Assembly: GCA_001821395.1 (NCBI GenBank)
Contig: MHLM01000003.1
Coordinates: 1 to 35,695 of the forward strand
DNA: 35,695 bases
Direction: 5' to 3'
Source: Candidatus Lloydbacteria bacterium RIFCSPHIGHO2_02_FULL_50_18
GTDB taxonomy: Bacteria > Patescibacteriota > Minisyncoccia > Phycocordibacterales > UBA6899
Part shown: positions 5,229 through 31,031 of the stretch, piece after piece
Layout: each line of letters starts with the position of its first letter
Numbering within the stretch: position 1 is the first letter of the stretch
Position numbers and translations under genes: made by a program
The notes under the pieces: generated by a model
What the model was told of the DNA's origin: nothing
The model's database searches: none
Seen by the model: the letters and a program-made list of their open reading frames with translations, nothing else

Positions 5229-6569
5229 TCATCCATGGGTGCGCTGCTTGGGGATCAATTGCATGACTGGGATGAGCCGTTCAACAAATTTATTTGTATT
5301 TACTCCAACCAGTCCAACTCCGCCATGTTCGATTGATTCACTGAGTAGTCGGGAAAATTCCGCACCGTCGATTTGTTGAGACAAATAGCGCGTCAGGCAG
5401 CCTTCAAATACTTCTTCCTGTTTCGTCGAGAGTGTTCCATAACGAATTCCAAACAGCCAGCGTTCAATATACAATCGTGAGAGAGGGGAGAGGCGTTTGC
5501 TTGCCGGCTGTCTCGTGAGCCAGTCTCGCAATTCGAAGAGCCCGTCCATCTTAGTCAAAATATCCATCGCATACTCGGATGCGTACCCCATCCCTCCCTG
5601 CGGTCTCGGTTTTTGCAGAACAAACAGCGCATCTCTTTTTGCGAGCTTCAGTACGGCGACCTCGATGAGGATATGATTCAGCCTCCGCTCAAGAATCGGT
5701 TCAGGTTCTCTTGCTACTGCCTTCGCGAAATCATTGATACAGGAGACCTTTGATAGCTGTTCAAACGTGAGCTCGTCGCTTGGTTCATTGTCGAAGGGTG
5801 AAGAGCCGAACTCCAGGCTTGTCGCCGGTTTGACCGCTGTGGTTACGTCGGTTGCGCTCGTCAATATGCGTGATCCTTTTTTTTCTTCTATTTTAACGAT
5901 CTGTCCGTCCTTCATATAGAGCACGCGATCGGCATACGTGATGAATGAAGGATCGTGGGTGACAAGGAGAATCGTCTTTTTATCGCGGACGTTCAATTCG
6001 AGCAATTGATTGAGCACGATCTCGGTCGATTCTGAGTCAAGGTTTCCCGTGGGTTCATCGGCGACGATGATGTCGGGATCGGTGATGAGCGCTCGTGCGA
6101 TTGCAACGCGTTGCTGCTGTCCTCCTGAAAGCTGGCTTGGGTAGCGCTTGACCAAGTGACTGATGCGAAAACGCTCCAAAAGGACCTGCGCTTTCTTTTT
6201 ACGCTCTCTCGGCGGCACTCCTGCGGCGAGGAGCGGTAACGTCACATTCTGGAGTACGTCAAGTGTTGAGATGAGGTTGTATGATTGAAAGATCATGCCG
6301 ACATCGAAACGGTGCAGCACAAGCAGGTCCTGCGGTTTCATCGAGGCGACATTCTTTCCGTTCACCCACACTTCTCCCGTGTCGATATTCCGTTCGATTC
6401 CCGTGAGCGCATAAATGAGCGTTGACTTGCCGCAGCCTGACGGGCCGTAGACCACTACGAACTCTTCCGGGTATGCCTTAAAATTCACATCATGCAAGGC
6501 GACACTTTCCGCGGATGTGCCTTTCTTGTAGATGATCGAGAGATCTGTTGTTCCAAAAATTTCCTGCAT
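5229..6569 (-). CDS. MacB/LolD-type ABC transporter ATPase with C-terminal extension
   Basis: A 446-aa ABC ATPase. Residues 1-235 are a complete nucleotide-binding domain: Walker [10 protein letters not shown] at 42-50, Q-loop FQS near 94-96, signature LSGGQQQR at 147-154, Walker [10 protein letters not shown] at 167-175 and the switch histidine in THD at 205. The QSYNLI and DEPTGNLDS motifs are typical of the MacB/LolD/FtsE group. Residues from about 240 to 446 form an additional, mainly helical domain that I do not recognise; ordinary members end near residue 230. It starts 12 nt after the stop of the permease gene, without a Shine-Dalgarno sequence, so it is the last gene of the surface-protein operon. 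It would energise that permease on the cytoplasmic side. Confidence 0.9.
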
Positions 6570-6581
6570 ACGTGATGATGA

Positions 6582-8321
6582 TTATTTGTACTTGACCGCA
6601 TTGAGCGGATCCATCATTGCTGCCCTCTGGCTTGGAATGATCCCGGTAAGAAACCCGATGACGAGCGCAGAGCCGACAATGGAGACCATGAACCATGTGG
6701 GGTAGTAGAAGAGCGCGATCGTATGCCCTCCGAAACTCTGCGCAAGAAAATTGATGACGAAATTCGCTCCTTGCGATATTGCTAGTCCAAAGAGCAACCC
6801 GCTTACTCCGCCGAGTCCTCCGATGATCGTCGCTTCCAAGAGGAAGAGTTTGCGGACGTCACCATCTGAGATCCCGAGCACCTTCATGATGCCGATCTCC
6901 TGCGTCCGCTCAAGGAGTGATATGGTCATGGTGTTGAACATTCCAATGGTCGCAACGATGAGTGATGCGGCTCCGAAGAGTGCGAGGACAATCTCGGCGA
7001 TATTGAAGACTTTTGTCGCTTGGTCAACCGTATCGATGATTGAACTCGACATGAAGCCAAAGTCCGCAATACTTACACGCAGCGCACTGATATGGGTCTT
7101 GTCTATTGCTAAGACATCCACAGCACTATACTGCGGTACGAGGTCTGCGAGAAATCCCGCTGAAAGATAAATATTCGGATTTTCATCATCATTGCTTATT
7201 CCGACGACCTGAAAATCATCACCGAGCTTGATGCTCTCAACCCCGGTCCCGCCCTCTTTTGTGATCGGGCGATATACCGTCACAGTGAATGGCTTTGTGA
7301 AGTCATTGAGACCTGTCTTATTCATTATTTGCAAAAAGCTTGAACTGAGAACAATGGCATGTTCATCGAGCGTGTAGATACGCCCTTCTTTTAGCTGACC
7401 GCCCGAAACGGAAAAATATTCCGGCTGGGTTCCGCGGAATTGTGCCTCGACGGCTAATGCCTCCGATTCTAGCTGTCCGGCGAGTCCGAATATCGGTTCG
7501 ACGTGTACGACGCCCGGCAGAGCGGCGATCCGGTTGGCACTTTCACGATCAAGTGGAATAACATCGGGGCTTGGTGACTGCACGGTGAGCGAGCGCATCA
7601 GTCTTTCTGAGGCGAATTGGTCCAAGAGCACTTTTTCCAGTCCATATCCGAACGAGACCAAAAAGAAGATCGTTGCGAAGCTGACTCCTATCCCAAGGGT
7701 GGTGAGCATTGTCATTCCCGGCTTCACGCGAAATGTGCGCAGTGCGAGCGTGATCAAATCTCGGTAGAGGATATGCGTTTTTCCGTTCTGCGGTATGATG
7801 ATCTTTTCTTCCTCTACCGGCGTCGCGAGCCTCGTCTCGGTGACCTCCGATGCTACGCGAGCAGCACTGCTTGCTCCTTTTCCTTTTTCAATATCTTTTT
7901 CGATTTCCGCTTCTTTCAGTTCAAGTCTAAGAATATCGATCCGCAAACCTCGGAGTTCGATCTCGCTCTTGCGAAGCAAGTCCATGATCGCCCATCGCTC
8001 TCGTTGCAGGTCTTGGCGCTCCTGCTGGAGTTTCCATCGTCCGCGTTCGAACGTCCGCTGTGCCTCATTGTCTACCGCCCCTTTTTCCTGGAGAGTAAAT
8101 TTTTGTATCGCCGCTTCCGTTGCTTCTTCCTTTTCCCTGATGCTTCCAAAATGCACCGATATTTCTGCGATGGCGTTTTGTTGTTTGAGAATTCGCGTCT
8201 GCTTGTCCGCCTTCTGGTTCGAGATATTTTGCAGTAATATTTCAGGGTCAACAACCCTTGCGCGATGAAACGGCCAAAGTGAGCGGAGAAATATACGTAA
8301 TGTGGATGCTTTTTCGGGCAT
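6582..8321 (-). CDS. MacB/FtsX-family ABC permease with cytoplasmic coiled coil
   Basis: A 579-aa permease. Residues 1-180 precede the first membrane segment and hold a charged coiled coil (about 30-150, with repeated RW/ER motifs such as RGRWKLQQERQDLQRERW). TM1 lies at about 204-224. A MacB-type periplasmic domain follows, then three C-terminal FtsX helices with the usual TISLLERTQEIGIMKVLG motif between them. The family normally starts within a few dozen residues of TM1, so the 200-aa cytoplasmic N-terminus is unusual. The open frame extends to 8795 but overlaps the upstream gene; ATG 8321 follows a TATTAT element by 7 nt and sits 49 nt after the surface-protein stop. By family analogy it is a mechanotransmission or envelope-export permease; its substrate is unknown. 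Confidence 0.85.
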   Translation of the reverse strand: MPEKASTLRIFLRSLWPFHRARVVDPEILLQNISNQKADKQTRILKQQNAIAEISVHFGSIREKEEATEAAIQKFTLQEKGAVDNEAQRTFERGRWKLQQERQDLQRERWAIMDLLRKSEIELRGLRIDILRLELKEAEIEKDIEKGKGASSAARVASEVTETRLATPVEEEKIIIPQNGKTHILYRDLITLALRTFRVKPGMTMLTTLGIGVSFATIFFLVSFGYGLEKVLLDQFASERLMRSLTVQSPSPDVIPLDRESANRIAALPGVVHVEPIFGLAGQLESEALAVEAQFRGTQPEYFSVSGGQLKEGRIYTLDEHAIVLSSSFLQIMNKTGLNDFTKPFTVTVYRPITKEGGTGVESIKLGDDFQVVGISNDDENPNIYLSAGFLADLVPQYSAVDVLAIDKTHISALRVSIADFGFMSSSIIDTVDQATKVFNIAEIVLALFGAASLIVATIGMFNTMTISLLERTQEIGIMKVLGISDGDVRKLFLLEATIIGGLGGVSGLLFGLAISQGANFVINFLAQSFGGHTIALFYYPTWFMVSIVGSALVIGFLTGIIPSQRAAMMDPLNAVKYK

Positions 8322-8328
8322 TGAGATG

Positions 8329-8334
8329 ATAATA
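8329..8334 (-). promoter_or_regulatory. -10-like element before permease gene
   Basis: TATTAT on the minus strand ends 7 nt before the ATG at 8321, in the 49-nt gap after the giant surface-protein gene. It may give the transporter genes an extra internal promoter. Confidence 0.35.
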
Positions 8335-8370
8335 CCTATCCCGTCATTATAACCTAATATTTCCCGAACC

Positions 8371-11300
8371 CTATAACCCGATATTTTTTGTCCAACCGAA
8401 TGTCGATGAGAAGTTGGCAATAATGATGTCGATGATCGATGCTTTTTGCTGGGGTGTTTTGACGGTAAAATCCTTTGATTCCGCACGGTTTCCTGACGCA
8501 TCGGTCGAGGCAACGCGGAAGCGGTACACGGTATTTGGTTTCCAGTTGGCAATAACGATGGTGTGCTTCGTCCCCATGTCGATCGTCTCGCTTGTAGACA
8601 GAGCGGGCTCCGTTCCCTCAACTCCCGCGACGCCTTCATCGTAGAGTACTTGTGATGTCGAGAGTTCATCTGTGCCCCAGAAGACGATGACTTGGATCTT
8701 GTTTCCGGCACCCGGGAATACGGTGATATCTGTTCGTACCTGAGTGATCTCCGGGGGGGCGATATCCTTGCCCGTCGTGTAGTTCGCCATATCACGTCTT
8801 GCAGTATTTCCGTGCGGGTCCGTTGAGAGCAGTTCGATACCGTAGGTGGTACCTGATTTTAGCTGCTCAAGAATAACGGCATGGTCGTTCACATAGTCAG
8901 ACTTTCCAAACGTGTCCCCCCTACTTTCCATTGGCTTTCCGTTCACATACGGAGTGTAGCGGACGGCGGAATTGGTGAGCACATTCGTGTGCCACGCGAA
9001 GCGGACCTTTCCACCTTCCAGTTGTGCAACGCTCGCATTAGTGATCTCGGGGAGTTCGACGGGGGTCACGAAGGTGTAGTCACGGGTGCGCACTTTCGTC
9101 CCCAACTGCGAGGTGGAGCGGATCTGGAAGTGATACTCCGTTGAGGGAAGCAAGTTCTCGAGCGTGACCTTGTGGTCCATCTCATATATCTCCGCCTTGC
9201 CGAATTCCTGTTTGTACGGATCTTCGCGCGCGGAATCGAATTCATCCTTCTTTGCAAGGGCGATCATGGAGTTCGTCTCTTTGTCGCTCGTCCACGCGAT
9301 CGACACCATGTTTGCTCCGATCACGACCTCCGGAGCACCCCTTATGATGGGCGGGGGAACAGCCTGTGCGAGTTCGCGGAGTGTTTTCATTGCGGGGGTG
9401 AGCTCGCCTTCCGTGAGGTTGAGTGAGGTACTGCCCTCGAAGGATTTGGTGAGTGCACTGAACTTTTCGCTCACGATCCTGAGGATCGCTTTCGGATCGG
9501 TCGTTTCATCGGCACGAAGTCCGAAGATCTCTGTTTTGATATCGGTTAATTCTTTCACTGCGGTCGCAAGCTCGGTCGTCTTTTGTGCAAGCTCATCTGT
9601 TCGTAATGCGAGTGCATCCTGTGCGTCTTGCAACGCTTTCTTGGCTTCATCGTAGAGGACTTGTGCAACACCGTCGGGCTGTCGTGCGCTTGCGTAAACG
9701 ACAAGTTGGACCACTCGATCGGCTTCACCGAAGGACTGTTCTTTTGTGGTGAAAGAGTATTCAGTTGAAGTGGCGATGTTGCCGTTCTGGTCGGCGGAGC
9801 TGACGCGGTAGTAGTAAGGGGTGAGCGGAGTGAGCCCGTCGATCTGGATGAAGTGGGACATGTCGTAGGTCGTGTGCACGGTCGAACTTGCGTATATTCC
9901 CGTCGTCGTACCCCATTCCACCGTTCCATTTGCCGCCTCATCAGTGTCCCAGGAGATGACCGCGGCGATATCGATGACGGTTCCTGTGGCGACGTTCGTG
10001 ATGATGGGGGCGGAGAGATCGTCTGAGGTGTTAAATTTATAGTATTCCTTGACCCCATTCACCACATTCTTGTCTTCCGCGAGATTACCCGCCTCATCCG
10101 TCGATTGGACATAGAAGTAATAGGTCTGCCCCGGGATGAGTCCCTCGAGGGTGACCTTGTGGGTGGTGAGGTATGCGGCCATGCCGGTAAAGAACTCGAT
10201 CCCTCCTGTGGGGGGGGTATTCATCGCATACACGACATTAGCATTGGCAGCGATGTTCGTATCCCAGCTGATGTCCGCGTTGGTATTCGATGCGCGGATG
10301 ACCGCAACATTTGCAATGAGCGCACCCGATCTTGTCGTGAAGGAGAGCGGAGTGGATGACGCCAGATTTCCCGACGGGTCACGCGAAGTCACCACGTAGT
10401 CATATGTTTGCCCGGGAGTGAGTCCCGTGATCGACACTTCATGATTGGTGACGTATGAGGTGACACCTTGGGTCAAACTGTAGTCGCTGCAGGGGGAGAC
10501 ACAGAATCCTACGCTCGAATCAGCGAGCTCGCTTGTCGTCCAGGAGATGGTTGCCCCTTGCGTCGTTGTCGTCGCGCTCTCGCCGGTGATCGTGGGCGGA
10601 GTGCTGTCGACGCTTTGTCCATTGGGAGCATCGCTCACGACGGGGGAGTAATATGAGGTATTGCCGTTCGCGTCGTCGACGTAGAGTTTGTAGTAATAGG
10701 TGAGGTTGGTGTCAAGCATCGCGCCGCCATTGTCATCAAGAATGTAGTTATCCATACGGTTGGTGATCGTGCGATAGAGCTCGTATGGGCCGCCGGCAAC
10801 CGAGCGATAGATGCGGTATGCGCCAAAGCCGGGCCCCGGTACGGGAGTGACTCCCCAGGAGATGAAAAGTCGGAAGGTGAGGTCATTCGAGAGGTCAAGG
10901 ATACCGACCCCCACCGGTGTGTTCGGTGTCGTGACCGCGGTGATCGCCGTTTCGTTCGCATGCGCATCGCGGAGCTGCAAATATACCGTATCGGGTTCCG
11001 CCACCAGTGTAATGGTTGAGGATGAAGCGAAGGGGACCCAGATAGCATCCGAGAGGTCAGGCATGCGCCCGAGTTTCATTTCCATCGCCGAATCGTCTGA
11101 TGCATTGATCGTCGCGAGCGCTGGGGAGTATGTGGCTTGGATAATGAGCGGGATAGCTCCGAACGCCGGGTTTTTCTCATCGAGTGGAAAGGCGAGTGAT
11201 GCAAGTGCCGCGGTATTTTTTGCAAGCTCTCCATCGTTCACCGTTACGCGTACTTGCGTTGTTGAGGAGAATACGCCGTTGAGGGTACTCTTTGCGTCCC

Positions 11301-14300
11301 AGACAGTAGTGTATGTGTTCCACGTGAGCTCTGAGACAGCCTTGCTTGTCGTCGCATCAGCGGATAGACCCGTAACGATAGGTGTCCACGTTCCGCCACT
11401 GTTGGTTGAATATTCAAATGACGGGAGGACAGTTCCCGGAGTGAATGTTCCGAAGGTGGCATCGGGATCGCGCGTATCGTAGCTGATCAGGACGGTGCCG
11501 TCAGTTTGTTCCGCTGCCGTCACGTTCTGAAGCTCCGGTTGGAGGTTCATCACATAGCTTATCGTGAGATCAGCCATCGATGGGGTCGATGCGCCTGATG
11601 AAGAAAGTGTTATCATGTACTGAAACCACTGGTCATCCATGCCATCACGCACCGAGGAGGGGAGTGCGGAAGAAAGACAGGTGACCGTAGTTCCTGACTT
11701 TGAACATCCGGTTGAAGTTGAGCTGAGCGTCGCCCAGTCGGTCGAAGCGACGGTGGCTGCTGTTGAGGATGCACGAAGTGAGATCGCAACGTATGTTCCG
11801 GCAGGAAGCGTAGCATCTTCATTCCACGTAGTTCCTCCCATTAAATTTGCCGTATTCCCCGTATCGAATTTTGACGAGGTGAGAGTTTGTCCTGATGGAT
11901 AACGGTTAGAGACAATCGTGACGTCACTCAATGTGGGAGAAGTCGCGGTATTTGTTGTTCCGAAGTTCGCTCGATATTGCACATAGCGATGCACTCCCAA
12001 TCCGGAAATACTTCCGCCACTCAAAACGCCCGTCTGCCACGCTGTCCATGAGCCATCGGGGACAAGCGTATCTCCTGCGCGCACGTCGATGCTAGCTGTT
12101 GTATTCGCTGGGGTTGAAAGAGAGTACGAGATACTTCCCTGACCCGCGAGGGAATCCAAGACGGAAGAGGTGAAAGTGCCGAGAGTGGAGTAGACAGCGG
12201 TTTGAATGATGAATTTGTAGAAGCCGGTATTACCGGTACTTTGAGTGACATAGATCGTATCATCCGCACCATTACGGATCATACTACTACCATTGCTGAG
12301 TGCTCCTGGCGCTACTGCAAGCGTCGTCCACGTATTGGTGGAGATGGTGTATTTGTAGAAGCCGGTGTTACTGCCACCTCGAGTGACATAGATCGTATCA
12401 TCAGCACCATTACGGATCATACTACTGCCATCGGCGAGTGTTCCTGGCGCTACTGCAAGCGTCATCCACGTATTAGTGGAGATGGTGTATTTGTAGAAGC
12501 CGGTGAGATTGCCACATTGTGTGACATAGATCGTATCATCAGCACCATTACGGATCATATCACTACCATTGTTGAGTGCTCCTGGTACTACCGTAAGCGT
12601 CGTCCACGTATTGGTGGAGATGGTGTATTTGTAGAAGCCGGCGAGACCGACGGTGCCGCCTTGAGTGACATAGATCGTATCATCGGCACCATTACGGATC
12701 ATACTACTACCAGAGTCAAGTATTCCTGGTACTACCGCAAGCGTCGTCCACGTATTGGTGGAGATGGTGTATCGATAGAAGCCGGTAGCGGAATTTCCTT
12801 GAGTGACATAGATCGTATCATCGGCTCCATTGCGGATCATATTACTACCACCGAAGAGTATTCCTGGTACTACCGCAAGCGTCGTCCAAGTGTTAGTGGA
12901 GATGGTGTATTTATAGAAGCCTGTGGTGCCATTACCTCGAGTGACATAGATCGTATCATCGGCTCCATTGCGGATCATATTACTACCGTTTGCGAGTGCT
13001 CCTGGTACTACCGCAAGCGTCGTCCACGTATTGGTGGAGATGGTGTATCGATAGAAGCCGGTAGCGGAATTTCCTTGAGTGACATAGATCGTATCATCCG
13101 CACCATTACGGATCATATTACTACCCTGCGCGAGTGTTCCTGGTGTCGCTGCCAAACTCGAAACATTCGATCCTGCCCACGTATTGGTGGAGATGGTGTA
13201 TTTATAGAAGCCAGTAGTGCTATTCCCTTGAGTCACATAGATCGTATCATCCGCACCATTGCTGATCATGCTGGAGCCAGTGTAGGGCCCCCCGGGAATT
13301 GCAGCCAGAGAAGTCCAAGTGTTGGTGGAGATGGTGTATTTGTAGAAGCTGGTATAGCTAGTCGCTTGAGTGACATAGATCGTATCATTCGCACCATTAC
13401 GGATCATGCTGGAGCCATAGGAAAGTGGTCCTGGAGTTATGGCCAAAGAAGTCCAAGCATTGGTCGAAATGGTGTATTTGTAGAAGTTGGCGGTCATGTT
13501 ACCTCGAGTGACATAGATCGTATCATCAGCACCATTACGGATCATACTACTACCATCGCTGAGTGCTCCCGGTGCTACCGCAAGCGTCGTCCACGTATTG
13601 GTGGAGATGGTGTATCGATAGAAGCCGGTAGTGGAATTTCCTTGAGTGACATAGATCGTATCATCGGCACCATTACGGATCATTCTGGAGCCAGCACCCA
13701 CCCCTGGATTTACAGCCAAAGAAGTCCAGGTGTTAGTGGAGATGGTGTATTTATAGAAGCCGGTATTGCCACCCCCTTGGGTCACATAGATCGTATCATC
13801 CGCACCATTACTGATCATGCTAGAGTTAGTGTACACACTCCCCGGAATTGCAGTCAAAGAAGTCCAGGTGTTAGTGGAGATGGTGTATTTATAGAAGCCA
13901 GTAGTGCTATTCCCTTGAGTCACATAGATCGTATCATCGGCTCCATTGCGGATCATATTACTACCGTTTGCGAGTGCTCCTGGTACTACCGCAAGCGTCG
14001 TCCACATATTGGTGGAGATGGTGTATTTATAGAAGCCGGTAGTGCCACCACCTTGGGTCACATAGATCGTATCATCCGCACCATTGCGGATTATATTGCT
14101 GCCTATGGCAATCGCTCCTGGCGCTGCCTTGAGCGCCGTATCCCACGCATTCACAGGAATAGAAGTGCCCGCCAGCACGACCGAAGCGCCTGCACCTCCC
14201 CCGCTCACCACTGTTGTTGATTGCGTTCCCGCATTAAAATCCGCATCGCTCGTTTGTGTCACCGAGGTGCTTATCGTCGAGAGTGAAAGCGTTGTGCCGC

Positions 14301-14805
14301 CGACGATATTTGTCGAGGTCGCAGCGTACTCGGTCCAGTTCGCAGGCGCCGGATACCCCGTCGTATTCGACGTCAGTGTCGTCCAGTCGCTCTGGGTCCA
14401 GGAGAATGTTGCGGCGAGCGCTGTCTGATACACTCCTGTCGCAAAGTTGATCGCGAGACCTGCGAGCGACGAGGTCATGACGATTACGAGTCCCGTCGTC
14501 GCGGTGAAGAGCCGCACTCGTGCATGGTATTTTTTGAATCCATCATGGGAATGCCGCTCGATAGAAGGGTGCACGCCCCGCTCTTTGTACAAGACTTCAT
14601 ATGTTGTTTCCGAATCTTTAGTGAGAATGATCGCGAAGCGCAGGATGCCCTCGATGAGACTGATAAAAAAGAGAGAGATACTGAGCGCGCGGAAAGGGAG
14701 GAGTGTCTCTTTTTCGTGCTTCAATGTGTCGCGGAGCTCGACCTCTTTGCTGCGGCGGATCTTGTTAATTTTGTAAAACAATGCGGTTAAATTTATGTTT
14801 TTCAT
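8371..14805 (-). CDS. giant surface protein: Kelch-like repeats, FN3 domains, coiled coil
   Basis: A 2144-aa envelope protein. A basic N-terminus precedes hydrophobic segments at about 38-62 and 99-121, the second followed by an AxA-type site near 130. Residues about 237-870 hold 14 tandem repeats of roughly 45 residues, each with NGADDTIYVT and FYKYTISTNTW cores; they resemble Kelch or galactose-oxidase blades, and 14 would fit two seven-bladed propellers. Beta-sandwich domains follow at about 870-1100. FN3 domains follow, with repeated ISWDT and YYYRVSSAD-type motifs. A coiled coil at about 1715-1810 is inserted between FN3 domains. Three more FN3 domains and a hydrophobic or amphipathic tail (2120-2144) end the chain. 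It is first in an operon with the permease and ATPase. Adhesion or surface-layer function is inference. Confidence 0.85.
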   Translation of the reverse strand: MKNINLTALFYKINKIRRSKEVELRDTLKHEKETLLPFRALSISLFFISLIEGILRFAIILTKDSETTYEVLYKERGVHPSIERHSHDGFKKYHARVRLFTATTGLVIVMTSSLAGLAINFATGVYQTALAATFSWTQSDWTTLTSNTTGYPAPANWTEYAATSTNIVGGTTLSLSTISTSVTQTSDADFNAGTQSTTVVSGGGAGASVVLAGTSIPVNAWDTALKAAPGAIAIGSNIIRNGADDTIYVTQGGGTTGFYKYTISTNMWTTLAVVPGALANGSNMIRNGADDTIYVTQGNSTTGFYKYTISTNTWTSLTAIPGSVYTNSSMISNGADDTIYVTQGGGNTGFYKYTISTNTWTSLAVNPGVGAGSRMIRNGADDTIYVTQGNSTTGFYRYTISTNTWTTLAVAPGALSDGSSMIRNGADDTIYVTRGNMTANFYKYTISTNAWTSLAITPGPLSYGSSMIRNGANDTIYVTQATSYTSFYKYTISTNTWTSLAAIPGGPYTGSSMISNGADDTIYVTQGNSTTGFYKYTISTNTWAGSNVSSLAATPGTLAQGSNMIRNGADDTIYVTQGNSATGFYRYTISTNTWTTLAVVPGALANGSNMIRNGADDTIYVTRGNGTTGFYKYTISTNTWTTLAVVPGILFGGSNMIRNGADDTIYVTQGNSATGFYRYTISTNTWTTLAVVPGILDSGSSMIRNGADDTIYVTQGGTVGLAGFYKYTISTNTWTTLTVVPGALNNGSDMIRNGADDTIYVTQCGNLTGFYKYTISTNTWMTLAVAPGTLADGSSMIRNGADDTIYVTRGGSNTGFYKYTISTNTWTTLAVAPGALSNGSSMIRNGADDTIYVTQSTGNTGFYKFIIQTAVYSTLGTFTSSVLDSLAGQGSISYSLSTPANTTASIDVRAGDTLVPDGSWTAWQTGVLSGGSISGLGVHRYVQYRANFGTTNTATSPTLSDVTIVSNRYPSGQTLTSSKFDTGNTANLMGGTTWNEDATLPAGTYVAISLRASSTAATVASTDWATLSSTSTGCSKSGTTVTCLSSALPSSVRDGMDDQWFQYMITLSSSGASTPSMADLTISYVMNLQPELQNVTAAEQTDGTVLISYDTRDPDATFGTFTPGTVLPSFEYSTNSGGTWTPIVTGLSADATTSKAVSELTWNTYTTVWDAKSTLNGVFSSTTQVRVTVNDGELAKNTAALASLAFPLDEKNPAFGAIPLIIQATYSPALATINASDDSAMEMKLGRMPDLSDAIWVPFASSSTITLVAEPDTVYLQLRDAHANETAITAVTTPNTPVGVGILDLSNDLTFRLFISWGVTPVPGPGFGAYRIYRSVAGGPYELYRTITNRMDNYILDDNGGAMLDTNLTYYYKLYVDDANGNTSYYSPVVSDAPNGQSVDSTPPTITGESATTTTQGATISWTTSELADSSVGFCVSPCSDYSLTQGVTSYVTNHEVSITGLTPGQTYDYVVTSRDPSGNLASSTPLSFTTRSGALIANVAVIRASNTNADISWDTNIAANANVVYAMNTPPTGGIEFFTGMAAYLTTHKVTLEGLIPGQTYYFYVQSTDEAGNLAEDKNVVNGVKEYYKFNTSDDLSAPIITNVATGTVIDIAAVISWDTDEAANGTVEWGTTTGIYASSTVHTTYDMSHFIQIDGLTPLTPYYYRVSSADQNGNIATSTEYSFTTKEQSFGEADRVVQLVVYASARQPDGVAQVLYDEAKKALQDAQDALALRTDELAQKTTELATAVKELTDIKTEIFGLRADETTDPKAILRIVSEKFSALTKSFEGSTSLNLTEGELTPAMKTLRELAQAVPPPIIRGAPEVVIGANMVSIAWTSDKETNSMIALAKKDEFDSAREDPYKQEFGKAEIYEMDHKVTLENLLPSTEYHFQIRSTSQLGTKVRTRDYTFVTPVELPEITNASVAQLEGGKVRFAWHTNVLTNSAVRYTPYVNGKPMESRGDTFGKSDYVNDHAVILEQLKSGTTYGIELLSTDPHGNTARRDMANYTTGKDIAPPEITQVRTDITVFPGAGNKIQVIVFWGTDELSTSQVLYDEGVAGVEGTEPALSTSETIDMGTKHTIVIANWKPNTVYRFRVASTDASGNRAESKDFTVKTPQQKASIIDIIIANFSSTFGWTKNIGL
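12190..14102 (-). repeat. 14-copy tandem coding repeat, about 138-bp unit
   Basis: Fourteen in-frame units lie inside the giant surface-protein gene; the motif CATAGATCGTATCAT on the plus strand marks almost every unit. Exact matches include 99 nt (12724-12822 and 13000-13098, two units apart) and 83 nt (12945-13027 and 13923-14005, seven units apart). Such identity indicates recent duplication or ongoing homogenisation. Confidence 0.9.
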
Positions 14806-14814
14806 GCTGGTGGT

Positions 14815-14823
14815 ATTATAGCA
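14815..14823 (-). promoter_or_regulatory. consensus extended -10 promoter of surface-protein operon
   Basis: TGC-TATAAT on the minus strand is a perfect extended -10. It ends 9 nt before the ATG at 14805, so the 5' leader would be only a few nucleotides. No Shine-Dalgarno sequence lies between. Confidence 0.65.
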
Positions 14824-14898
14824 AAATTTTCATTGGAAAAAGCTTAATTAGTATCTTTTTGTTTAGCGAGTATTTTCATGGTAAAATTCCGCGCATAA

Positions 14899-14907
14899 TG
14901 GTATTCT
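14899..14907 (+). promoter_or_regulatory. extended -10 promoter of coiled-coil gene
   Basis: TGG-TATTCT ends 11 nt before the ATG at 14919. It is back to back with the surface-protein promoter in a 113-bp divergent intergenic region, which would allow shared regulation. Confidence 0.5.
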
Positions 14908-14918
14908 AAGAACAAATT

Positions 14919-15941
14919 ATGAACGATAAAAACACTACTGATGGAAATGGGGGACCATTTGCTCTCGACCCCGCACTCGATCAAACTCCAGCTCAGGATA
15001 TCACTGTTTCTTCCGATATTACCGACACGCTCGCGCAATATGAAAAAAAACTCGCCGCGCTTCGTGAGGAGGTTTCCGTACTGACGCGTGACCGTATCGC
15101 GCTTGCCGCAGCCGTTGATGAAGAACACCAGATGATATTCAAGCTTGGACAAGACCTACTGCCCATTCTCGTCCGTGAACGTTCGGTTATTGAGGCATTG
15201 AAAGACATCAGCATAAAAGAGCGCTCAGTTACGGATATCGCGGAACGTCGCACTCACGAACAATCACGATGGAAACAAGTTGAAGGGTGGTATGCAGTTG
15301 AGCAGGAAAAATGGGAAAAACAAGAAACACTTGAAGCGCAAAAGCAGCGGACCGAGGCGCATCGTGCGGAGCACGTAAAATTAACGGAGAAGGAATATGC
15401 GCTGCGCACCGAGATCGAGCAGGTGGAACTCGCAAAAGAAAAAGCCGAACTCCATGCGCAGATCGAGGTCATCGTGGAGTCTCGCGTTTCGACTGAAGGA
15501 CAACTTGATGACCTGGAAGAAAAACGCGAGAAGGCGATCGCGCAGTTTCAGACGATCACACAAATGGAGGAGGGGATTGAAAAGAAGGAATTAGAGGTGG
15601 AAGATCTGCTTACGAGCGCCCATTCACTCAAAGAAGAACGCACGTTGGTCGAAGAACGCTACGCGCTCGAAAAAGAGCGACATGAAGCTGAGGCCTCCCG
15701 ATGGAACATTGAGGACGAGATTGCGACGATCGGCGGTTCATATGTTGAATCCGAGAAGATACTTGATGAACTGAAGCAAAAAGAGAAGGCACTGCTCGAC
15801 CAGCTCGCTGTTCTTGAAAAAAAAGCCCCGCTCGCGACGCCGCTTGCGCCGATTTCTCCCCTTGAAAAAGTATTAACTGAAGAAGCGGTCACGACAGCGG
15901 AGGCGCTACCAGGAGAAGGCGTGGTACCACCCTTGGCATAA
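14919..15941 (+). CDS. cytoplasmic coiled-coil protein, hypothetical
   Basis: A 340-aa protein with no signal peptide or membrane segment, so presumably cytoplasmic. The first 35 residues are acidic and polar. From about 35 to 300 the chain is almost continuous charged heptad-like helix rich in Glu, Lys, Arg and Ala, with W-containing segments such as WYAVEQEKWEKQE and EASRWNIEDE. The last 40 residues are Pro/Ala-rich. The helix composition and spaced Arg-Trp motifs resemble the cytoplasmic coiled coil of the MacB-like permease encoded across the divergent promoter region, which suggests a partnership or shared ancestry. This is inference, since low-complexity coiled coils can look alike by chance. 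I assign no function. Confidence 0.75.
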   Translation: MNDKNTTDGNGGPFALDPALDQTPAQDITVSSDITDTLAQYEKKLAALREEVSVLTRDRIALAAAVDEEHQMIFKLGQDLLPILVRERSVIEALKDISIKERSVTDIAERRTHEQSRWKQVEGWYAVEQEKWEKQETLEAQKQRTEAHRAEHVKLTEKEYALRTEIEQVELAKEKAELHAQIEVIVESRVSTEGQLDDLEEKREKAIAQFQTITQMEEGIEKKELEVEDLLTSAHSLKEERTLVEERYALEKERHEAEASRWNIEDEIATIGGSYVESEKILDELKQKEKALLDQLAVLEKKAPLATPLAPISPLEKVLTEEAVTTAEALPGEGVVPPLA

Positions 15942-16013: not shown

Positions 16014-16053
16014 TACATAGGGTGGTCCTATGTACATAGGACCACCCTATGTA
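16014..16053. repeat. perfect 40-bp palindrome
   Basis: Twenty base pairs on each side of the centre at 16033/16034 match without exception or spacer. The half-site reads TACATAGGACCACCCTATGT followed by A. Within it TACATAGG and CCTATGTA are themselves repeated around the centre. An 11-nt half-site-like match, TACATAGGACC, occurs at 19533-19543 before upp. It may be an operator, a hairpin or a mobile miniature element. Confidence 0.75.
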
Positions 16054-24407: not shown

Positions 24408-27400
24408 ATGGAAAATACTCAACAAGAGGGTGGAGGCCCTCGTGGCAGCTCATTTATTTCGCGCGTCAAAGCGCTTTTATCGGACAGTGTAAAAAAATAT
24501 TATAAGCTGGGACTCATCATCGTAGTGCTCGCGGTCATGTGTGTCACAGTATTTTTTGTGGTGCTACAGAGGATGCCATCCGAGCTCCCCGGTGAGCAAT
24601 ATACGCTCGTTGCCGATAAGATCTCGCAAAGCGCTCCGATCACCGTCTTGCTCCCTCCTGATACAAATTTTTCAAATTTTGATCCAAAACAGGAGCTCGC
24701 CTTCTCGCCCGTGATCAAGGGCGAGTGGGAATCCCACGCGACCTCTTCAGAGAACAGGTATCGCTTTCTTCCCTCCGAAAAACTCACCGTCGGTGCATAC
24801 TATCTTGTGACGCTTGATGCCCCCGAGCTCAAGATGGAAAAAATGTTCTCAGTGGATAAGGACCCTTCAGTACTCGCGATATTCCCGAAGCAAGAGGCTG
24901 AGGTTAATGAATACTCAAATATTACCATCATGTTCAGTCGTCCGATGGTTGCCCTCAGTGCGCTCGGAGAAAATGCTGATATCGTGCCCCCCGTTCTTAT
25001 CACTCCTTATACAGAGGGGAGATGGAAGTGGATCACGACGCGCACGCTGCAGTTCATTCCGACGAAACGCCTCCTGCGCTCTTCTTCGTACACCGTGTCC
25101 GTGAAAGACGGGTTTCGCTCGCTCGATGGAGTTAGTGTTCCGGCATTTGCGCATGCTTTTACGACGCGCACGCTCAGCTATCAGTATTCCGGAGTGAACG
25201 ACGCTTCCTTGCTCTCACTCACTCACGACCAGCCCGTCCGTATCTACTTCAATCAGCCGATTGATCTTGAAAAGACACGGTCACTTATCAGTGTTTCACG
25301 AACGGCATCGCTTCTCCCCGTGTCGTTTGTCGTCGCTTATGGAACGCGCAGTGTTACTGATGAAAAAACAGGAAAAACTCGGGATCTTACCGATCAATCG
25401 GTGCTTGAGTTATTCCCTGAAAAGGATAGGTACGGAAGAGCATATCTCTGGGACTTTGATGAAACATACGGAGTTGCACTATCGGGTGCAGTGCCGCTTG
25501 AGGGAGATATAAAACTCTCTGTGGCATTTAACCGATCTGTCCGGATCGCCCCCATTATCGAAAATGTATCTGCGGAGTCACCACGGAGCAACCTCGTGAC
25601 GCCGGAGTTATTCGACCCCACTGGTACGCTCGTGATACGCGCGAGTGAGCCGATTGACCTGCATGCTTCGAATATTGCAGGGAAGGGAATACAAAAGCTG
25701 GAGTACGGTCAAAAGTGTCCGGAGCCGGCAGCCGGAGAAGAGGTTTCTTTAGACTTGAGGGATTGCGCAAAGGTCGATGATCAAAAAAGTATTCGCATCA
25801 GTTTCAACGCCGACGAATTTGTCCTCGGGGAAACGGCGGTGATCACGATGACAAAACTCGTGAATATGGACGGTATTGTGCTCAATACCGAATCGATCGT
25901 GAAAACATTTACCACCTTCCCTAAATTTACCGTGGTGCGCACGACACCGAAAACTAACGCGGTTAATGCGAGTCTCACCGCCGTGCAGATCTGTAGTACT
26001 AATCCACTCGTCGCACCGATCGAAGCTGAATTCTATAAGAAGATCCGCTCGAACATGATGATCGGTCTTTGGAATTGGGACGGTTCGTTCTTGGTCACAA
26101 AAGATTTCTATCGATCAGACGCATCATGCCCCTCGGGTACGTTTCAGACGACGATCCGATATGGACTCGTACCAAAATTTGGGTACGAGCTCACGCTTGA
26201 TCTTGACGATCATTTTGGGCAGCACCTCTCGCTTGATCTGCGCTTTACCACCGCCGACGCTGATCCACTGGCGAAAGGGTTCGCTCATTTGCAGCCAACG
26301 GTGGTGATGACTCCGCCGGACCGTACGACGCTCACGTATGGCCTTGATTTCATGAATGCAATGGATATGACGATCTGCAGGGTCTCTGCGGAGATGATGC
26401 TCTCCTATCGCGCATTTCCCAAAGAGATCGAGGATGGACCATCCGCGTTTCACTGTATTGATAAAAAGACAAAGCATCTCGTGCTCCCCGAATCATATGC
26501 AACAAGAAAATACCTACGGGTTGATCTTCGCGACTTCTATCCGGATGCGATAGGAAATTATGTTGTTATTTTTTCTAATCCGGGCTATCGCAAGGTATCG
26601 CGTGACTGGAAGACCGATAAGCTTATTCTCGGCGGGCAGTTATTTGAAAAAACGTATGTTACCGTCACGCGGCTTGCGGTCGGTTCAAAACAAGTAGAAC
26701 GCAGCGATGCATACTACGACCAGACGAACGGCGAACGTGATGCATTCATGAAGGGGAAGTGGCCGACGAATCTGTATTGGGTGAATGATTTTAAGAGTCT
26801 TACGCCGAGCATTGGCGCCGTGGTCACTCCGTATATTGCGGACCGCACAACCATGACAAAACTGACCGCATATCGCACGGATAACGAGGGTATCGCAACA
26901 ACCCCTTCCGCGGATGACGTTATTGGTGCGGTTGTCACTGCGGATGGAGATAGCGCTGTCGTGAGCAATAAAAGCGATGCATTGTCATGGGCACAGAATG
27001 CGGGACCGGCGCGGCGTGAATATGTTTATACCGACCGTCCGATCTATCGTCCCGGAGATACGGTACACGTGAAGGGTATCTCACGTATCGGCTACGATGC
27101 GAAATTTGAGCTCGCACAAGGAAAGACAAAGCTCGAAATTCGTGATGCGAAATATGGGGTCGCACGAACGCTCGATCTTTCATTCAGCAAGAACGGCACA
27201 TATGAATCATCGTTCGTCATCGATACAAAGGCGCCGCTCGGCTATTATTCGATTAGCTCGGATACCGGAGGCTATTGGTCATTTCAGGTCGAGGAGTACG
27301 TCGCACCACAGTTCAAGGTTGATGTTGCTCCGGATAAAGAAGAATACATTTCCGGAGACACTGCGGCTATCACTATCGCCGCGGACTACTATTTCGGTGT

Positions 27401-30400
27401 CCCGGTGCAAAATGGTGATGCGGAGTATCGGATCGTCGCACAGGATTATTATTTTGACCGTTATTCAGACGGCTACTTCAGTTTCGGAAGAGGTTGGTAT
27501 GATAACGAAAATGGTTGGTATGGCGATCATTTTATTGCGTCCGGAAAACTGAAGCTTGCGAAAGACGGAAAAGGAGCGATCAGTAAGGAGTTGAATATTG
27601 ATAAACTCTTTACCGGAAATTATAAAGAGGGAAGCAAGGTGGTGAGCATCTATGTCACCGTAAAGAACGAGAACGGACAATCAGTGACAAAGCAACAGTC
27701 ATTTATTGTGCATCGTGGAACATTTTATGCGGGAATCTCCATGGATGAATATTTTGTCGAGTCGGGAAAGCAGGGGGTGGCACACATAAAGACCGTTGAT
27801 GTCAAAGGGAAGCCTGTCTCAAGGGATGCGCTTACACTCAGCCTTGATAAGGTTGAGTGGAAGTCGTACAAACGTCAGGAAGTGGACGGGAATTTCTACT
27901 ATCGCACTGAACGGGTGAAGGCCGCGGTGAGCAGTACAAAATTAAACACTGATGAGAGCGGCAACGGGAGTTACCAATTCACCGCAGGCGAGGCGGGGGA
28001 ATATGAGCTTTCAATCATCGGGACTGACGAGCGAGGGAACGCTGTCACCGCACAATACCCGTTCTATGTTTCAGGGTCCGGAGCGATCAGTATTCGTCCG
28101 ACCAATAACGCGACGCTCGAGTTGGTTGCGCCGAAGACGGATCTTGCCGTCGGTGCGACCGGGTCCTTCGTCATCAAGTCTCCGTATCCGCACGCAAAGG
28201 CACTTGTGACGCTCGCACGCGGCAGCACCTATCTCCACAAGGTGATCGATCTTGATTCACAGCTCACCGAGTATCGGTTCACCGCGACCGAGGAATATAT
28301 CCCTAATGTCATCGCAAGCGTGCTGTTGCTCGCGCCGTTACCGGAAATGAAATATGGTGAAGTACGTTACACGGTCGGTGCAAAAGAAAAAGAATTAACG
28401 ATCGAGGTCGTTCCAGGCAAGAAAACATATTTACCCGGTGAAGAGGTCAGCCTTGCGGTAACAGTGAAAGATGCGAACGGAAGGCCGGTGCAGGCGGAGC
28501 TTTCGCTTGCCGTTGTCGATATGAGCGTACTCGCCCTTGTTGGGAATCCCAAGAAACATCCGGTCACATTCTTCTATAATGGCGAACCGCTGACCATTCG
28601 TACTGCCATGAATGTGAAGAACGTGCTCAATATTGCGGAGATTCCCATAGGAACGAAGGGTGGAGGCGGAGGCGAGGACCTTGAGAAGAAAAAGCGCGGC
28701 GAGTTTCGTGACACCGCTTTCTGGGAGGGGGTGGTAGAAACGGACGCGAATGGAAAAGCAACCGCCACCTTTATGCTCCCCGACAATCTCACGCAGTGGC
28801 AAGTTGAAAGTGTCGGTGTTACTAAGGAAACCAAGATCGGCGTCGGATACAGTGATTTTACCGCACGCAAATCGATCATGGCGGTACCGCTCAAGCCGCG
28901 ATTCATTCTACCCGGAGATAGTTTTGCGGTCGGTGGAACGATATTTAATGAGTCTGATAAGACGCAAAAATTGAACGTCTCCATCGTTGCACCCACGCTC
29001 ACGCTCCCCGGCAGTCACGAGACGACGGTCGTCATCGAGCCGCATGCGTCGATAAGCATTTCATTTCCGGCCGTTGCCCCGGAAGCGGTCATAGAGGGGA
29101 GTCATGAGTTCACGCTACTTGTAAAAAATAATGAATATGAAGATGTTGTTGTGAACACCTTTCCGATAGAGCGCAATGATACGTATGAATTCACTGCAAC
29201 TGCCGGACGTGTTACTGATGCGAATTGGAAAGAGCAGCTCTATCTGCCAAAGAATGTGATCGCCGACCGGGGTATGCTTACGCTCTCTCTCAGTGCAACG
29301 ATGGCATCACTACTCGATAGTGCGGTAATGGGAATGATCATCTATCCGTATGAATGCAGTGAGCAGGTCGCAAGTAAATTACGTACGATCGCTATCGTGA
29401 AGCAAAATGCGCAGTTGTTCGGTACCGGGACACCGATGCTGCCGGAAAGAGTGACGGTTGGTACGGAGACGTTTACCATTGACCAGATCGTGGAGAATGG
29501 ATTGGCGAAACTCTATCAAGCTCAAACACCGGATGGCGGAATGCCGTATTATGCCAACCTCGCACCCGACTTTGGTGTGACGCTTGAAACGCTTGAAACG
29601 TATATTGATCTGAAAAAAGCAGGCTATAAGATCGATGCAGACAAGCTCACGCAATCGGCGCAATATGTATTCAATTACATTAATTATCCGCGCGCGGATC
29701 ATCAGCTTTCGAGTGAAGATATCATCGTGAGTTCCTATGTGTTGTCGAAGGTCGAAGCCGCTCGTTTCTCGAGTCCCGCAATGCGCGAAAAACTGCTCGC
29801 GTACGCTGGCGATAAAGCGTTCATCCAAAATGGTTTAAGTACGCCCGCGCTCGCGTATCTTGCGATACTCGCGGCAAAAGAAAATTTTGGCATGTTTGCC
29901 TCGTCACGTTTGTTCGCGGAATTCGAGAACAGAAGCAATATCGATGCGCGCGGGACCACGATAAAGGCGAATACGGCAATGCCGTCACGATTTGCCGAAA
30001 GTGCGATCGTCGACACCGCGCTTGCGCTCAAGGCTTTCTCTGAGGCAAAGCGGGATTCACCGCTTTTGGAGGGGTTTGTTCGCGCATTGAAGACCGGAAG
30101 GTCGTACGATGGCGGATGGGCTTCGACGTATAACTCAATCATCGCGATCGACGCAGTGACGGAATATCTGAAGCTGACGAATGAAGCGAATGCACACATG
30201 AGTGTCGCTCTCACGCTTGATGGAACCCCGCTGCTCTCTCCGACATTCAATAAGGCGAACATACTTACAACTTATGCGACGACCGTGCCGATGAGCGCAC
30301 TCAAAAAAGGGGAGAGTCAGATAGTGCAATTTCTGAAAAAAGACCTCGGACTCACTAACGATGCGTATTACTACGACATGCTGCTGCGGTACTACCTTCC

Positions 30401-31031
30401 CGCCGCGTCGATCGCTCCTCGCGATGAGGGTTTCAGTGTGGTGCGCGCACTCTATCGAGCGGATGATGTCGAGTTCGCACACCCGGTGAGTGAGGCGATG
30501 CAAGGGGATGTTCTGCACGGGCGGATCACAGTGAGCGTTCCCGTGTCCCGTTTTCACGTTGCGATCGAGGACCGCATTCCCGCGGGAACCGAGATCGTGA
30601 ACCAGCGTCTTGCCACCGAAGATCAGAGTTTGGAAAATGATACCGCTCCGTCTTCTCGATTCGGCATGGACGGGAGAATGCTCGGTGCCGGATCAAAGCT
30701 TGAGCAGCGTCTTGCCGCGATCTTTTCCTTCGGCGGAAGGTCGATCGGACCGAACAGGGAAACAGACGGGATCTTGAGTGATGATATGTATGGCAACAGG
30801 AACATGGTACTCCGTCCGATATATCCCTCGGCCGTCGAGGCCCATGATGATCGTCTCTTTGTGTATGTGGACGAGCTTCCAGCCGGTGAATATGTCTATG
30901 ACTATTATCTGCGCGTGCTCATTCCCGGAACATATCAACACCTTCCGCTTGTGGTGAGTGAGATGTATACGCCGGAAAATTTCGGCCGCACCGCGGGTGG
31001 CATTTTCACGGTCGTTAAGAAGTCGGAGTAG
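24408..31031 (+). CDS. bacterial alpha-2-macroglobulin
   Basis: A 2207-aa envelope-anchored alpha-2-macroglobulin, expected to trap proteases through a bait region and a covalent thioester. One N-terminal membrane helix (about 34-53) anchors it, in place of the lipobox used by many proteobacterial members. Beta-sandwich MG-like domains follow. The A2M_N/MG2 motif TDRPIYRPGDTVHVKG lies near 872-890. A Gly-rich linker near 1420 precedes the A2M domain (FWEGVVETDANGKA near 1438, then DNLTQWQV). The thioester motif is YECSEQ with Cys1650 and Gln1653 intact, the usual CGEQ being CSEQ. A helical thioester domain and a C-terminal receptor-like beta domain complete it. The start is set by the extended -10 element 6 nt upstream. 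It is convergent with pbpC, a partner it accompanies in many bacteria. Confidence 0.92.
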   Translation: MENTQQEGGGPRGSSFISRVKALLSDSVKKYYKLGLIIVVLAVMCVTVFFVVLQRMPSELPGEQYTLVADKISQSAPITVLLPPDTNFSNFDPKQELAFSPVIKGEWESHATSSENRYRFLPSEKLTVGAYYLVTLDAPELKMEKMFSVDKDPSVLAIFPKQEAEVNEYSNITIMFSRPMVALSALGENADIVPPVLITPYTEGRWKWITTRTLQFIPTKRLLRSSSYTVSVKDGFRSLDGVSVPAFAHAFTTRTLSYQYSGVNDASLLSLTHDQPVRIYFNQPIDLEKTRSLISVSRTASLLPVSFVVAYGTRSVTDEKTGKTRDLTDQSVLELFPEKDRYGRAYLWDFDETYGVALSGAVPLEGDIKLSVAFNRSVRIAPIIENVSAESPRSNLVTPELFDPTGTLVIRASEPIDLHASNIAGKGIQKLEYGQKCPEPAAGEEVSLDLRDCAKVDDQKSIRISFNADEFVLGETAVITMTKLVNMDGIVLNTESIVKTFTTFPKFTVVRTTPKTNAVNASLTAVQICSTNPLVAPIEAEFYKKIRSNMMIGLWNWDGSFLVTKDFYRSDASCPSGTFQTTIRYGLVPKFGYELTLDLDDHFGQHLSLDLRFTTADADPLAKGFAHLQPTVVMTPPDRTTLTYGLDFMNAMDMTICRVSAEMMLSYRAFPKEIEDGPSAFHCIDKKTKHLVLPESYATRKYLRVDLRDFYPDAIGNYVVIFSNPGYRKVSRDWKTDKLILGGQLFEKTYVTVTRLAVGSKQVERSDAYYDQTNGERDAFMKGKWPTNLYWVNDFKSLTPSIGAVVTPYIADRTTMTKLTAYRTDNEGIATTPSADDVIGAVVTADGDSAVVSNKSDALSWAQNAGPARREYVYTDRPIYRPGDTVHVKGISRIGYDAKFELAQGKTKLEIRDAKYGVARTLDLSFSKNGTYESSFVIDTKAPLGYYSISSDTGGYWSFQVEEYVAPQFKVDVAPDKEEYISGDTAAITIAADYYFGVPVQNGDAEYRIVAQDYYFDRYSDGYFSFGRGWYDNENGWYGDHFIASGKLKLAKDGKGAISKELNIDKLFTGNYKEGSKVVSIYVTVKNENGQSVTKQQSFIVHRGTFYAGISMDEYFVESGKQGVAHIKTVDVKGKPVSRDALTLSLDKVEWKSYKRQEVDGNFYYRTERVKAAVSSTKLNTDESGNGSYQFTAGEAGEYELSIIGTDERGNAVTAQYPFYVSGSGAISIRPTNNATLELVAPKTDLAVGATGSFVIKSPYPHAKALVTLARGSTYLHKVIDLDSQLTEYRFTATEEYIPNVIASVLLLAPLPEMKYGEVRYTVGAKEKELTIEVVPGKKTYLPGEEVSLAVTVKDANGRPVQAELSLAVVDMSVLALVGNPKKHPVTFFYNGEPLTIRTAMNVKNVLNIAEIPIGTKGGGGGEDLEKKKRGEFRDTAFWEGVVETDANGKATATFMLPDNLTQWQVESVGVTKETKIGVGYSDFTARKSIMAVPLKPRFILPGDSFAVGGTIFNESDKTQKLNVSIVAPTLTLPGSHETTVVIEPHASISISFPAVAPEAVIEGSHEFTLLVKNNEYEDVVVNTFPIERNDTYEFTATAGRVTDANWKEQLYLPKNVIADRGMLTLSLSATMASLLDSAVMGMIIYPYECSEQVASKLRTIAIVKQNAQLFGTGTPMLPERVTVGTETFTIDQIVENGLAKLYQAQTPDGGMPYYANLAPDFGVTLETLETYIDLKKAGYKIDADKLTQSAQYVFNYINYPRADHQLSSEDIIVSSYVLSKVEAARFSSPAMREKLLAYAGDKAFIQNGLSTPALAYLAILAAKENFGMFASSRLFAEFENRSNIDARGTTIKANTAMPSRFAESAIVDTALALKAFSEAKRDSPLLEGFVRALKTGRSYDGGWASTYNSIIAIDAVTEYLKLTNEANAHMSVALTLDGTPLLSPTFNKANILTTYATTVPMSALKKGESQIVQFLKKDLGLTNDAYYYDMLLRYYLPAASIAPRDEGFSVVRALYRADDVEFAHPVSEAMQGDVLHGRITVSVPVSRFHVAIEDRIPAGTEIVNQRLATEDQSLENDTAPSSRFGMDGRMLGAGSKLEQRLAAIFSFGGRSIGPNRETDGILSDDMYGNRNMVLRPIYPSAVEAHDDRLFVYVDELPAGEYVYDYYLRVLIPGTYQHLPLVVSEMYTPENFGRTAGGIFTVVKKSE

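Follow-up and report, generated by a model that had tools for sequence, protein, structure and literature searches.

A conserved unit of FN3-tail protein, MacB-class ATPase, and MacB/LolC-fold permease at a giant surface protein locus in Patescibacteria

Introduction

What might a gene for a giant surface protein be doing beside a MacB-like transporter, and which of the genes around it belong to one system? The question is raised by positions 5229 to 15941 of a 35,695-nucleotide stretch of Candidatus Lloydbacteria bacterium RIFCSPHIGHO2_02_FULL_50_18 (Patescibacteriota; contig MHLM01000003.1); this whole stretch is called the window below. Three minus-strand genes lie there in the transcription order giant surface protein (14805 to 8371; 2144 aa), ATP-binding cassette (ABC) permease (8321 to 6582), and ABC ATPase (6569 to 5229), next to a divergent plus-strand gene for a soluble 340-aa protein (14919 to 15941). 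An earlier reading of the sequence alone (the original prediction) had suggested that the four could form one system in which a cytoplasmic coiled coil docks on the permease and controls the giant's display, release, or remodeling. All four genes held up as real and intact. The conserved unit, however, consists of three: a protein with FN3 domains and a C-terminal tail, an ATPase of the MacB class whose C-terminal domain is helical, and a permease of the MacB/LolC fold with four helices.

Results and discussion

Pfam matches to kelch, fn3, and the FN3-like Pur_ac_phosph_N mark the giant as a protein of Ig/FN3 domains and 14 regularly spaced kelch-like repeats of ~46 aa each (core NGADDTIYVT; 12136 to 14160). 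A helical or coiled-coil spacer between FN3 domains (residues 1694 to 1819; 9349 to 9726) precedes a conserved C-terminal FN3 module (approximately residues 1820 to 2120; 8446 to 9348) that is common to the tail proteins of relatives, and the earlier description of a 2144-aa repeat protein with a helical segment between FN3 domains was borne out. After its FN3 domains the giant ends in a tail of ~23 residues (IIDIIIANFSSTFGWTKNIGL), mapped as ASIIDIIIANFSSTFGWTKNIGL at 8374 to 8442; all of these features are on the minus strand. The tail consensus, ~IIDIIxxNFxxxFGWxKxIG, stands at the C terminus or a few residues short of the end in proteins of 215 to 2405 aa, for which we coin the name FN3-tail family. 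The window giant fits this family (tail, E = 7e-21; A1 match, E = 5.8e-136), with the window sequence itself forming one row in both the tail and A1 models.

Linkage and co-inheritance of the tail with the transporter carry the case for a unit. The permease subclass (threshold, E below 1e-60) occurred in 10 of 97 relatives, and in 9 of these 10 the neighbors included an ATPase and a protein with the giant's C-terminal 300 residues. The neighboring ATPases have a C-terminal extension, with one clear exception (275 aa, genome G054). A scan of one genome per species across Patescibacteria, with gene content read within the fetched stretch, gave 80 tail loci from Falkow-, Magasanik-, Kaiser-, Sung-, Azam-, Moran-, Doudna-, Jorgensen-, Taylor-, Yonath-, Adler-, and Shapirobacteria records. 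The FN3 protein was found at 79 of them, together with both ATPase and permease at 57, with one of the two at 3, and with neither at 19; complete triads were usually contiguous and co-directional. Among 247 genomes of the order, the FN3 C-terminal module was full-length in 26 and the permease subclass was present in 27, with 25 in common, and a shortened tail adjoins the permease in one more (G229). Counted this way, 26 order genomes have both, 1 the tail only, and 1 the permease only (Fisher, 7e-33), and a 287-genome sample of the class gave 34 with the tail, 48 with the permease, 33 with both, 1 with the tail only, and 15 with the permease only (Fisher, 1.6e-30); both P values overstate independence because shared ancestry is ignored, and the pattern holds across many families. 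The co-occurrence in relatives that the original prediction had set as its own check was therefore found for three of the genes but not for the 340-aa gene.

The same pattern bears on whether the ABC unit could simply serve to export small molecules or peptides, or to pump them out in defense, with the FN3 surface protein merely traveling along. Export of antibiotics and peptides, or resistance to them, is a frequent role of MacB-like ABC proteins (PMC5985334), but here the tail is near-perfectly co-inherited with one permease subclass, and the other MacB-like permeases of the genome take no part. We regard an ordinary pump as highly improbable.

The transporter itself is of the type VII ABC (MacB/LolCDE/FtsEX) superfamily, with a new sort of partner. 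The permease coding sequence is likely 6582 to 8321 (minus strand; 579 aa, ATG start at 8321); the longest open reading frame reaches 8795, overlapping the giant gene, and the 158 residues at its start are read through out of frame. In this shortened form the FtsX/MacB permease first described stands, with Pfam matches to FtsX (PF02687, 7.7e-19) and MacB_PCD (PF12704, 1.1e-14). Transmembrane (TM) segments lie at residues 202 to 233, 436 to 470, 492 to 527, and 537 to 565, with an extracytoplasmic domain between TM1 and TM2. In Foldseek the permease model matched MacB (5gko, E = 5e-22) and LolE (E = 2e-20), along with LolC/E and FtsX, and the extracytoplasmic domain matched the periplasmic-domain structures 3ftj and 5udf. 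As modeled, the permease has the hallmarks of type VII ABC proteins, namely, four TM segments, a TM1-TM2 extracytoplasmic domain, and a Porter-type extracytoplasmic fold. Scores fell short of the cut-offs for the MacB equivalog NF007826 (71 versus 966), the lolCE equivalog (53 versus 362), and the FtsEX equivalogs (FtsX_Gpos, 40.6 versus 225; FtsE, 174.6 versus 264.85).

The 446-aa ATPase (5229 to 6569, minus strand), of the MacB/LolD/FtsE class, joins an ABC domain (ABC_tran, PF00005, 2.6e-32) to the extra C-terminal domain noted in the original prediction, which was upheld and measures ~180 residues. The model of its nucleotide-binding domain (NBD) is nearest the MacB NBDs 5lja/5gko (Z, 32.5; root mean square deviation, 1.7 to 2.1), and the fold-search matches for the ATPase model were all taken up by the NBD. 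The C-terminal domain (approximately residues 267 to 438; 5256 to 5771, minus strand) is present in nearly all relatives and consists of two four-helix units, helical in the model, each with a GG(M/V)G motif in which G is conserved at both sites in a 31-member alignment. It had no sequence relative in Pfam or PDB; TAFH/TFIID came up as candidates (E, 0.001 to 0.5) and were judged chance.

How might such a unit work? We give about an even chance to a dedicated type VII ABC machine that seats or releases a tail-bearing giant surface protein with ATP. To judge from its N-terminal hydrophobic signal, the giant would be exported by Sec. At the outer face of the membrane, the permease would then recognize the C-terminal tail and the preceding FN3 module as a client signal; the co-inheritance of tail and permease is observed. 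In binding and hydrolyzing ATP, the MacB-like ATPase would drive mechanotransmission along the stalk of the permease and its extracytoplasmic domain, and the protein would be extracted, pushed, or seated at the cell surface rather than moved across the membrane, as expected from a family in which ATP powers work outside the membrane and the substrate is not moved across it (PMC5985334). The helical C-terminal domain of the ATPase may regulate the cycle from inside.

A different role for the FN3-tail protein is suggested by what the locus lacks. No MacA/HlyD-type adaptor was found among the scanned locus genes, whereas an HlyD/MacA-type adaptor adjoins each of the three other MacB-like permeases of this genome; the FN3-tail protein occupies the place that such an adaptor holds at those ABC loci, a position that counts for coupling under the client view as well. 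It could then be a permanent extracytoplasmic partner like MacA, EnvC, or PcsB, with its tail and helical spacer docked on the permease and with ATP cycles driving the FN3 stalk on, e.g., a cell-wall enzyme or a separate giant; the window partner would be fused to the giant. MacA-type adaptors share the broad plan of a helical spacer between beta domains with the FN3-tail protein, which counts for this view, but the FN3-tail protein is without sequence similarity to the HlyD/MacA families. Copy number, which tracks the transporter in the order and so speaks for the client machine too, likewise fits a permanent partner, with mostly a single tail protein per transporter: the tail profile, run on 34 selected genomes, gave one clear copy per tail genome, and G231 has two copies and two permeases. 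(Within the order, a general sorting signal on many proteins was considered for the tail and rejected, there being one per transporter.) Genome G376 of the class sample, outside the order, however, keeps one ATPase-permease pair and three full-length tail giants elsewhere in the genome, none of them beside the pair, and three tails for one ABC unit therefore favor a client signal over a fixed 1:1 adaptor, although not decisively. The additional tail matches in G279, G458, G337, and G517 were left out of the client count, their reading frames being short or broken.

The tail loci fall into two subtypes, which bear on the same choice. In the short subtype, the FN3-tail protein has ~500 aa (FN3, helical spacer, three FN3 domains, and tail), and the gene upstream often encodes a separate large surface protein of about 1,500 to 2,800 aa; in the long subtype, which includes the window, giant and FN3-tail are a single protein of about 1,300 to 2,400 aa. 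A short tail protein next to a separate giant looks like an adaptor, and the window giant resembles a fusion of adaptor and client. Weighing this with the gene's position against the tail proteins of G376 and the missing HlyD/MacA similarity, we consider a permanent partner unlikely, although it deserves serious attention.

Twelve short-subtype loci (L091:362-7238, L089:6602-13580, and ten others) have further surface-protein genes in common, mostly downstream of the permease, that the window locus is without. They encode a secreted protein of ~620 aa, one of ~315 aa that by eye resembles DUF916/WxL-interacting proteins, a protein with a dockerin, and a pair of cohesin-like proteins whose TM helices are at the C terminus; the Pfam matches to dockerin (2.4e-5) and cohesin (1e-5) are both just above their cut-offs. 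These likenesses suggest a cohesin-dockerin surface complex in Patescibacteria. A broader picture, tentative and somewhat on the doubtful side, would be a novel Patescibacteria sorting pathway in which a dedicated MacB-type ABC, its ATPase bearing an unusual helical domain, reads and handles a C-terminal FN3-tail signal on Sec-exported, giant adhesin-like proteins and which, in one large subgroup, sits amid a cohesin-, dockerin-, and WxL/DUF916-like cluster as a surface-complex assembly line in bacteria thought to be host-attached.

Besides the shared ancestry behind the P values, several points weigh against a transporter that seats or releases the giant by its tail. The topology of the giant is uncertain, with two N-terminal hydrophobic segments (residues 33 to 63 and 99 to 125) and a signal-peptidase-like site, ALA-AT, after the second. 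The tail could be a membrane anchor and not be read by the ABC unit at all. Its amphipathicity is weak in the window giant (moment, 0.24, compared with 0.45 in two homologues). At the 19 loci noted above, the tail protein has no ABC gene in the fetched stretch, and in 15 class genomes the permease was detected but the tail was not, perhaps through divergence or because the search overlooked it. Only in G376 does the sequence confirm several full-length clients of a single transporter.

Where do the coiled coils belong? The original prediction had described matching coiled coils on three proteins and made a cytoplasmic one the center of the system. The permease begins with a cytoplasmic helical hairpin (residues 26 to 145; 7887 to 8246, minus strand), modeled by AlphaFold2 as helices 26 to 79 and 85 to 145 (predicted local distance difference test, mostly 75 to 92) and tied to the transmembrane part by a low-confidence linker. 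The 340-aa protein, which has no Pfam family, carries the hairpin motif in two tandem copies. The spaced Arg-Trp (RW) motifs reported on both are real: RW at 95 and 109 in the permease and RW/KW at 117 and 131 in the 340-aa protein, each pair 14 apart. BLASTP matched the two (E = 1e-5), with z = 5.6 over heptad-preserving shuffles (0/200), and when four proteins from other genomes were added to these two, every pairwise comparison gave z of 5.6 to 17.7 (0/200 shuffles). Because heptad-preserving shuffles were exceeded, the permease coil and the 340-aa protein are homologues rather than generically alike coiled coils. The permease coil is no more similar to the adjoining protein than to the four family members from other genomes (z, 5.7 to 7.1); the fused segment is hence no recent duplicate of the gene beside it. 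We name this the RW-coil family, defined by RW pairs 14 apart beside a helix-hairpin turn, a feature that the giant's coil lacks. Compared with the RW coils, the giant's coil gave z of 2.3 and 0.3 (5/200 and 72/200 shuffles equally good), and the RW motif is absent; lying between FN3 domains, it should be outside the cell. Two of the three coiled coils thus match, and the giant's is unrelated.

The distribution of RW coils separates them from the unit. The RW-coil profile (A4) matched in 30 of 247 order genomes and 18 of 287 class genomes, in a permease only in this genome, and a sequence search found the 340-aa protein in 5 of 98 close genomes. The permeases of the 10 relatives are all without the RW coil, as are the 58 orthologous permeases at tail loci (0 matches to the profile; 56 of the 58 have 366 to 412 aa), and a gene of the 340-aa type adjoins none of the 80 tail loci. 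The 340-aa gene was accordingly rejected as a conserved fourth component, RW genes being mostly at other loci: often after pnp and before genes for a single-TM protein, dksA-like, and chlI-like proteins, or beside an MscS-type channel. Unrelated N-terminal extensions occur on the permeases of at least six other lineages (G054, L205, G299, G261, G337, and G391), so this end has acquired add-ons repeatedly, the RW hairpin among them. On these sequence comparisons, the cytoplasmic RW coils are a local add-on outside the conserved unit.

What remains of the original model, in which the soluble coiled-coil protein binds the coil of the permease in the cytoplasm, gates the transporter, and controls the display of the giant? 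The two coils are homologous, adjacent in the genome, and alike in their 14-residue RW spacing; the unrelated cytoplasmic extensions of other lineages indicate a site that tolerates regulatory add-ons, and RW proteins recur beside membrane proteins (the single-TM protein after pnp and the MscS-type channel). However, the RW gene is absent from other loci and so is not needed by the system, the RW family is usually in unrelated places, the permease coil has no nearer relative in its neighbor than in other genomes, and a low-confidence linker to the hairpin disfavors rigid force transmission. The full model is therefore improbable, and the cytoplasmic coil fails as the general center of the system, with RW genes at 0 of 80 loci and RW coils in 0 of 58 orthologous permeases. 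Its other element, a dedicated MacB-type ABC paired with a giant surface protein, retains the support of gene order, co-occurrence, and the tail. Local docking of the permease coil on the 340-aa protein is plausible in this genome; in this species only, the flexibly tethered RW hairpin may bind the two-hairpin RW protein as a scaffold or regulator.

Other features of the RW family and of permease N termini were seen along the way. The neighborhood pnp, RW coil, ~400-aa single-TM protein of no known family, dksA/traR-like, and chlI-like recurs at L234:3568-9431, L058:2924-13440, L230, L231, and L236. In three genomes of a single family (L221, L224, and L227), a five-TM gene directly follows the RW-coil gene, and in L224, the one scanned, it encodes an MscS-type channel. 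An RW-coil match at G144:C2:95328-96002 (L222) falls inside an open frame whose reported length is 24,590 aa, in a Patescibacteria genome of ~0.8 Mb. RW genes also stand close to MacAB-type operons in G006 and G045, a proximity that may be accidental and was left out of the tally. A recurring GW....I..AF-like motif, unlike the RW coil, marks the permease N-terminal extensions at L205:6792-9068, L249:2476-5154, L250:2427-4526, and L035:3969-5411.

The unit can be compared with several known systems. It resembles MacB (of MacAB-TolC and of the Gram-positive YknXYZ and SpMacAB) in its NBD, four-TM fold, and TM1-TM2 extracytoplasmic domain, with 5lja/5gko/5lil as best structures. Here, however, the NBD is a separate protein (5229 to 6569, versus the permease at 6582 to 8321) with its own C-terminal helical domain, the locus is without an HlyD/MacA adaptor, and the part of partner falls to an FN3 protein that ends in the tail. 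LolCDE/LolDF shares the fold (9rld and 7arh chains) and the separate NBD, and its work on exported proteins likewise takes place on the outer side of the inner membrane. It differs in having LolC plus LolE where this locus and those of relatives have a single permease gene. No lipobox was visible by eye in the N termini of the window giant or of the short FN3 proteins read, and the recognition element would instead be the C-terminal tail. To our knowledge, an outer membrane is not expected in Patescibacteria, a further difference from LolCDE. FtsEX with EnvC, PcsB, or RipC is of the same superfamily and likewise couples an ABC pair to an exported, helix-bearing partner. The extracytoplasmic domain here, about 190 to 200 aa and MacB-like, is larger than that of FtsX, the partner has FN3 domains and a tail, and FtsX-sized permeases (~310 aa) appeared as separate matches in relatives. 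C-terminal sorting signals such as those of PEP-CTERM and type I secretion offer another likeness: a short conserved C-terminal element on differing surface proteins, read by a dedicated machine. Unlike these, the tail is on one to three proteins per genome, has no LPXTG-like or PEP-like motif, and is paired with a MacB-type ABC rather than a protease or type I exporter. Searches of an open-access library turned up no account of the system; in PMC13059738, FN3 adhesin candidates and FtsEX receive no more than a passing mention.

A scan for promoters gave no promoter-like site between the divergent genes, and its overall count was below that of the shuffles. Downstream of the 340-aa gene lies a perfect, hairpin-like 18-bp inverted repeat with a 4-base loop (16014 to 16053). 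At 24408 to 31031 (plus strand), a 2207-aa alpha-2-macroglobulin-like protein (MG2, A2M, bait region, bMG10) has a Big_5 domain at its N terminus.

Conclusions

The triad adds a new partner type to the type VII ABC proteins, a superfamily for which client finding by the extracytoplasmic domains is still to be explained. How the host-attachment surface of Patescibacteria is built and controlled is itself largely open. With a concrete machine that is widespread in the phylum, a short mutable signal, and a client list, the triad makes surface assembly testable in a heterologous system.

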